The position numbers and the translations under genes are program-made. A stretch of 39,265 nt of DNA, taken from Actinomycetes bacterium. Its GTDB lineage: Bacteria; Actinomycetota; Actinomycetes; DATJPE01. The notes under the pieces are model-generated. The model made no database searches. It saw nothing but the letters and a program-made list of their open reading frames with translations, and was not told the origin of the DNA. Numbering within the stretch: position 1 is the stretch's first letter; each line of letters begins with the position of its first letter. Positions 36,800 to 36,926 of the stretch are shown piece by piece. The DNA lies in the NCBI GenBank assembly GCA_035506535.1, contig DATJPE010000099.1:1-39265 (forward strand). The letters are read 5' to 3'.

Positions 36800-36805
36800 T
36801 ACCCT
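36800..36805 (+). promoter_or_regulatory. -10 element for the leucine leader
   Basis: TACCCT ends 6 bases before the leader-peptide GTG at 36812, so the leader peptide would be read from a leaderless mRNA. The -35 region is weak (GGCTTC at 36777-36782, with 17 bases between). Confidence 0.5.
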
Positions 36806-36811
36806 GAGTCC

Positions 36812-36856
36812 GTGCGGTTCGGCCTGCTTCTTAGCCGCCGCGGCGAGGCCCTCTGA
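36812..36856 (+). CDS. leuL: leu leader peptide (attenuator), 14 residues
   Basis: GTG 36812 opens a 14-codon frame reading [14 protein letters not shown], then TGA. Three Leu codons in a row (CTG CTT CTT, at 36824-36832), two of them rare in so GC-rich a genome, lie 71 bases before the leuA ribosome-binding site begins. A further Leu (CTC) is the last codon. Short Leu-rich peptides before leuA have been predicted across actinobacteria. The stop codon lies in the loop of the anti-sequester hairpin. The ribosome would stall at the Leu codons when charged leucyl-tRNA is scarce. Confidence 0.8.
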
Positions 36857-36921
36857 CGGCCGGCTCCCTCGCCGCGGTGATCGGCTTGCCCGTCGGCCAC
36901 CCCGACCCATCCGAGGGAGCC
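36838..36921 (+). promoter_or_regulatory. Two-state hairpin switch controlling leuA translation
   Basis: Hairpin 1 pairs 36838-36848 with 36867-36877 (11 perfect base pairs, extendable by a G-U and a C-G pair; loop 18 bases). Hairpin 2 pairs 36862-36871 (GGCTCCCTCG) with 36912-36921 (CGAGGGAGCC), 10 perfect pairs, and buries the leuA ribosome-binding site GAGGGAG. The two share bases 36867-36871, so only one can form. A ribosome stalled at the first Leu codon would leave hairpin 1 free and the site open; a ribosome reading to the stop would block hairpin 1 and let hairpin 2 close the site. No U-run follows, so control is probably translational. Confidence 0.75.
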
Positions 36922-36926
36922 CTTCC

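Follow-up and report, generated by a model that had tools for sequence, protein, structure and literature searches.

Control of leuA in Actinobacteria has been debated since the S. coelicolor leader mutants of 1999 and the protein-ligand proposal of 2005. According to the account cited in PMC1262725, the S. coelicolor leuA leader mutants behaved unlike classical attenuation and gave paradoxical results (Craster, 1999). Seliverstov et al. (2005; PMC1262725) described a LEU element that precedes leuA in most Actinobacteria, consisting of a leader with a run of Leu codons, a base stem between Leu codons and the Shine-Dalgarno (SD) sequence, a pseudoknot and an alternative hairpin. Besides leuA, the authors reported it only before a transposase gene; they rejected both leader-peptide attenuation and a direct leucine riboswitch, and proposed a protein ligand (PMC1262725). 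The Actinobacteria include antibiotic producers, amino-acid producers and mycobacteria.

Several other actinobacterial leaders are relevant here. LeuL1 of S. lividans TK24 (MRFGLLLLSCRGEGL*) precedes leuA, is leaderless by RNA-seq and has no Rho-independent terminator (PMC8079986). The C. glutamicum leuL, also a Leu-run leader before leuA, is described as transcription attenuation (PMC4046766, PMC8709942). In M. tuberculosis, ilvB1NC is controlled by a transcription attenuator with a branched-chain amino acid (BCAA) codon leader and a Rho-independent terminator (PMC13236596). In translation attenuation, pairing of an upstream ORF with downstream sequence occludes the SD, which is freed by stalling (PMC13236596), and the mycobacterial cys operons are cited there as carrying leaderless polycysteine attenuators of this kind (cited in PMC13236596).

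In the window, i.e. the whole stretch of 39,265 nucleotides analyzed here, the leader gene leuL lies between era (end at 36785) and leuA (GTG at 36927; Table 1). The latter was identified by matches to NCBIfam PRK03739 (E 5.6e-272) and the leuA_yeast type as well as to the Pfam domains HMGL-like, IPMS_D2 and LeuA_dimer. The leuL ORF reads GTG CGG TTC GGC CTG CTT CTT AGC CGC CGC GGC GAG GCC CTC TGA. An earlier note on this DNA had described a leader of 14 residues with Leu-Leu-Leu (CTG CTT CTT), which is exact and is conserved in register and position.

The element is a clear member of the known LEU element and not a new kind: it stands before leuA and contains the Leu-run ORF, the pseudoknot and the alternative hairpin, and the base stem is favored in the ribosome-free fold (P = 0.84), with weak covariation (24/500 permutations). 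The peptide is nearly identical to S. lividans LeuL1, but has one Leu fewer. With C. glutamicum leuL the locus shares the Leu run before leuA and with M. tuberculosis ilvB1NC the actinobacterial BCAA codon leader before a BCAA gene; in contrast to the C. glutamicum description and to the Rho-independent terminator of ilvB1NC, no intrinsic terminator with a U-tract was found between leuL and leuA (36856 to 36927). The mycobacterial cys attenuators, as far as they are summarized in the citing article, resemble it as leaderless codon-run leaders and differ in amino acid and gene. A terminator-like site at 36804-36822 overlaps the start of leuL and hence lies outside the leader-leuA interval. An Rfam search of the leader returned no family at the gathering score. 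We consider it probable that the locus is a translational attenuator of the LEU-element family that senses leucine and has a leaderless start.

Table 1. Features of the leuL-leuA region, in positions of the window.
Feature	Position	Strand	Basis or remark
Extended -10 promoter element TGT-TACCCT	36797..36805	+	sequence; TANNNT spacing in relatives
Leader leuL, 14 codons	36812..36856	+	GTG 36812, TGA 36854-36856; sequence and homologous leaders
Sensor codons CTG CTT CTT (Leu-Leu-Leu)	36824..36832	+	conservation of CTT as last codon
Helix H4, Leu-codon strand (LEU base stem)	36826..36832	+	ribosome-free fold; weak covariation
Helix H1, 5' strand	36838..36848	+	inside leuL ORF; covariation
Helix H2, 5' strand (pseudoknot)	36858..36864	+	covariation
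Helix H3, anti-SD strand (sequestor)	36862..36871	+	10/10 Watson-Crick with SD region; SD permutations
Helix H1, 3' strand	36867..36877	+	first five bases double as anti-SD core; covariation
Helix H2, 3' strand (pseudoknot)	36892..36898	+	covariation
Helix H3, SD strand	36912..36921	+	sequence; SD permutations
leuA Shine-Dalgarno GAGGGAG	36913..36919	+	sequence
Helix H4, SD strand	36914..36920	+	ribosome-free fold; weak covariation
leuA, 2-isopropylmalate synthase, 579 aa	36927..38666	+	NCBIfam and Pfam

For the comparison, 170 leuA upstream regions were gathered, and homologous leaders in the same register were recovered from 146 of them; two loci (L019, L129) were left out as their automatic leuA start calls were wrong. 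The genome of the window is the only one of its order in the compared set. A covariance model built from 70 of the 146 leaders detected the LEU element in 97% of the class (314 of 325 genomes); among the 296 genomes sampled from the phylum, four that do not belong to the class also gave a match. With 67.5 bits (E 2e-11) the element of the window ranks among the typical members. A second match in the same genome (G000:C1:12886-12964, E 2.8e-4) lies antisense in a MerR-type regulator gene, has no leader and was dismissed as chance. Three genomes of family f11 (G010, G029, G047) and several of family f22 gave no LEU element with the model; in f11, leuA of the window's type is also missing or very divergent.

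The note had further proposed that leuL is leaderless, with a -10 element six bases before its GTG. The hexamer TACCCT (36800-36805) ends 6 nt upstream of the GTG and is directly preceded by TGT, a spacing which suggests a leaderless transcript and is in agreement with the RNA-seq result for S. lividans LeuL1. In 119 of 146 relatives, the leader start is preceded at a distance of 6-9 nt by a TANNNT hexamer, compared to a background of 1.4%, and 54 of these hexamers carry TGN. Judged from this spacing, the leaderless start looks like a class-wide feature.

Both stems described in the note, H1 and H3, are perfect in the window (11/11 and 10/10 Watson-Crick pairs). Both use the bases 36867-36871 and are therefore mutually exclusive, and H3 covers the leuA SD as had been stated. 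The two-hairpin account is nevertheless incomplete: the leader holds four helices, and both H2, which forms an H-type pseudoknot with H1, and H4, in which the Leu codons pair with the SD, had been missed. Dinucleotide shuffling of 36812-36926 gave a perfect 10-bp stem in 76 and an 11-bp stem in 21 of 5,000 shuffles, whereas two different perfect 10-bp stems occurred once. H3 of the window, at -22 kcal/mol, is the strongest of 110. The total folding energy lies within the range expected for a leader of this composition (z = 0.49); this measure is uninformative at high GC content, and the argument is therefore based on the individual stems and their covariation.

Covariation is most evident for the pseudoknot. 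Across 70 diverse sequences, 98.4% of the H1 cells are paired and 7/11 pairs show double changes; for H2, about 72% of the cells are paired and all seven pairs show double changes, resulting in 14/18 for both helices. The whole pseudoknot contains 102 doubly changed cells compared to 29 in shuffles, and none of 500 shuffles reached 102, with permutation tests that correct only partly for relatedness. Sliding the H1 and H2 partners by 1-3 columns halved the pairing. In the aligned relatives, the distance between the last sensor codon and the 5' strand of H1 is constant at 5 nt while the N-terminus and the stop of the leader vary. In the H1 part, the codons GGC, GAC, AGC and AAC (Gly, Asp, Ser, Asn) are matched by GCC, GTC, GCT and GTT on the distal strand. 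As peptide changes are compensated in the RNA here, selection in this part acts on the RNA and not on the peptide. The G equivalent to 36837 is present in 99% of the leuA leaders, is not Watson-Crick paired in H1 and usually faces an A or G (36878); the two positions are possibly a conserved mismatch extending H1.

The covariation of H3 is weaker than that of H1. Among 62 representatives, only 3 of 500 SD permutations paired as well as the real partners. The helix is weak in many relatives, and independent near-perfect versions are present in L123 (GGTCTCCTCG with CGAGGAGACC) and L137.

Many genomes carry further LEU copies besides the one of leuA, in contrast to the distribution described in 2005, and their codons match the gene that follows. 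Second leuA paralogues have their own copy with a Leu run (L196, L197, L201, L232, L236, L238, L243, L249), and in the Microbacteriaceae-like family f32 a copy with a pure Leu run precedes leuC-leuD (L191, L192, L199, L240, L248). In copies before leuB, often with ilvE next, the sensor codons are mixed branched-chain: VLVLI (L254, L250), VFVLI (L255), LVLI (L256), LLVIV (L257), LCVLI (L251), VLVIL (L242), VVILI (L246), LVIL (L195), IFVL (L245, L252), VLIL (L233), LIL (L194), VRIL (L237) and VVFLL (L239). Val or Ile is found among the sensor residues of 15/15 leuB-type leaders, but in only 1/146 leuA leaders; the Fisher value of 5e-19, computed with 2/141 leuA leaders, is conservative. Detection of the leuB-type leaders relied on the leuA-trained model; they represent six families, within which neighbors are not independent. 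Where tested, leuB, leuC and ilvE were identified by NCBIfam, and in L242 about 1.4 kb separate the leader from leuB downstream.

IlvE makes all three branched-chain amino acids, whereas leuA and leuC serve leucine only. All leuB-type leaders keep H1, with at least 10/11 pairs scored except in L233 and L257, where the pattern took a wrong 3' strand and the correct one is visible in the sequence; for L239, H1 was read from the sequence outside the pair scoring. Sensor-SD co-evolution in the leuB-type elements was not significant (p = 0.30). The finding that scaffold and register are kept while the codons track the gene favors a codon sensor based on ribosome stalling, and the swap seen at leuB-ilvE is a direct argument for codon sensing. 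On balance, we favor the idea of the LEU element as a portable module for reading codons throughout the class, i.e. a leaderless pseudoknot switch with an exchangeable sensor cassette (Leu before leuA and leuCD). We found no earlier report of copies before leuC and leuB-ilvE in the open-licence literature; as far as this search reaches, these copies, the codon swap and the large-scale covariation are new here.

The choice of synonymous codons is also conserved. In the leuA leaders, the last sensor Leu codon is CTT in 108/110 relatives, although CTT makes up 3.2% of the Leu codons in four genes of the window. The idea that the Leu codons are chosen mainly for SD pairing was discarded, since the energy is no better than with GC-biased synonymous codons. 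In the leuB-type leaders L233, L242, L245, L246, L250-L252 and L254-L257, the Val codon is nearly always GTA, which is rare in the genes of the window (5/170 Val codons) and parallels the near-invariant CTT.

In many cases, the gene that comes first after a leuB-type leader is a tiny ORF (about 20-50 codons) in the leader-leuB interval (L194, L195, L233, L237, L239, L242, L245, L246, L250, L252, L253). These ORFs share a C-terminal motif (ALQESMDRRDNGGETGH, ALDLRDNGGPR) and had no Pfam match above the curated cut-offs. In family f4 (L198, L202, L203, L205), LEU-like elements with Leu-Val or Leu-Val-Val codons (LVVRRRSGV, LLVTRRSGV) precede small proteins of about 90-160 aa, one of which shows a sub-threshold likeness to the LeuA allosteric domain (LeuA_dimer, E 0.053).

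For the mechanism in the window, we propose the following sequence of events, in which the stalling, the order of steps and control at translation rather than by mRNA stability or Rho termination are our reading of the data. Transcription would begin at the leuL GTG. When leucine is short, the ribosome would stall at the Leu codons; with the first of them in its A site it would reach about 36836, one base before H1. Its footprint would hide the Leu codons and prevent their pairing with the SD in H4, and the pseudoknot of H1 and H2 would hold the anti-SD strand 36862-36871, leaving the SD free for translation of leuA. When leucine is plentiful, the ribosome would continue over the 5' strand of H1 to the stop and block H1, so that the freed strand could shut the SD through H3; after ribosome release, the Leu codons could shut it through H4. 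The Leu codons would thus act as sensor and might, more tentatively and judging from the predicted fold, double as an anti-SD strand.

Folding of 115 relatives with the ribosome footprint masked is consistent with this logic. The predicted cost of opening the SD is 3.1 kcal/mol with the ribosome at the first of three Leu codons, compared to 4.5 kcal/mol both for the free RNA and with the ribosome at the stop (p about 1e-8). The difference in this cost between the stop and stalled positions, 1.24 with the native SD regions, fell to about 0.56 when SD regions were exchanged between genomes (p = 0.009). As a stalled ribosome lowers the opening cost, starvation should open leuA, as the note had argued. 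While this opening is predicted for the relatives, the equilibrium nested fold of the window itself does not reproduce it. For the full transcript with the ribosome at Leu1, H3 is preferred (-50.6 vs -46.7 with H1), and also at Leu2 and Leu3; H3 is ahead by about 3-4 kcal/mol in longer transcripts. For a transcript ending at 36926 with the ribosome at Leu1, neither H1 nor H3 has a clear advantage (-42.6 vs -41.8), and before the SD is transcribed, H1 is preferred and H3 cannot exist. Without a ribosome, the SD is predicted to be closed by the Leu codons. The starvation logic in the window therefore needs either the co-transcriptional order or the pseudoknot. Nested folding excludes H2. The seven pairs of this helix contribute about -12 kcal/mol, not counting the loop penalty, and the helix occupies three of the five bases through which the SD could invade H1. 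For these reasons, we think that a pseudoknot formed before the SD emerges may serve as the lock which keeps the starved state open.

Four other explanations have to be weighed against a translational attenuator. Leader translation might act mainly on transcription or on mRNA stability. In this scheme, a leader whose ribosome does not stall would be prone to Rho-dependent termination or to cleavage by RNases, the pseudoknot would act as a barrier, and SD sequestration would be a secondary effect. The codon swap fits any ribosome-stalling scheme, the reviews on C. glutamicum call leuL a transcription attenuator, and many relatives have weak versions of H3 and H4. Against this stand the lack of an intrinsic terminator between leuL and leuA, here as in S. 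lividans (PMC8079986), the improvement of the predicted switch by the native SD region and the covariation of H3 with the SD; we regard this scheme as unlikely. That the leader is translated in the window's organism with no regulatory effect, the perfect stems being relics or chance, is hard to reconcile with the single shuffle in 5,000 that gave two different 10-bp stems and with a covariance-model score typical of an element present in almost the whole class, and we give it very little credence.

The codon swap bears on the two remaining explanations, as neither a protein-binding site nor a direct leucine riboswitch predicts it. The published interpretation of 2005, in which a protein ligand acts on the element and the leader peptide is no sensor, fits the conserved pseudoknot, and Leu-codon mutations in S. 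coelicolor were reportedly without effect, as cited in PMC1262725. It does not predict Val, Leu and Ile codons before leuB-ilvE with the helices kept, nor a widely conserved leaderless start, and we consider it very unlikely. A riboswitch binding leucine directly, with an incidental leader ORF, would explain why the pseudoknot is compact and conserved and has a base stem at the SD. Given that the conserved bases lie nearly all in H1 or in the coding register, and given the exchanged codons, we share the rejection by the 2005 authors and regard it as extremely improbable. Taken together, the codon swap and the covariation are strong new evidence, at the level of sequence comparison, which would move the balance from the protein ligand back to translational attenuation. 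For a translational attenuator, we suggest that recoded Leu codons weakening H4 might raise basal expression and abolish the response, which might account for the seeming paradox of the 1999 mutants.

Elsewhere in the window, a PhoH-like ORF (30615..33728, + strand) in the ORF list contains an apparent intein between RGR and TLNDAF, with a GDHLW stretch inside and a VTHN end before Thr. By eye, this insert resembles a class 3 (Trp-Cys-Thr) intein.
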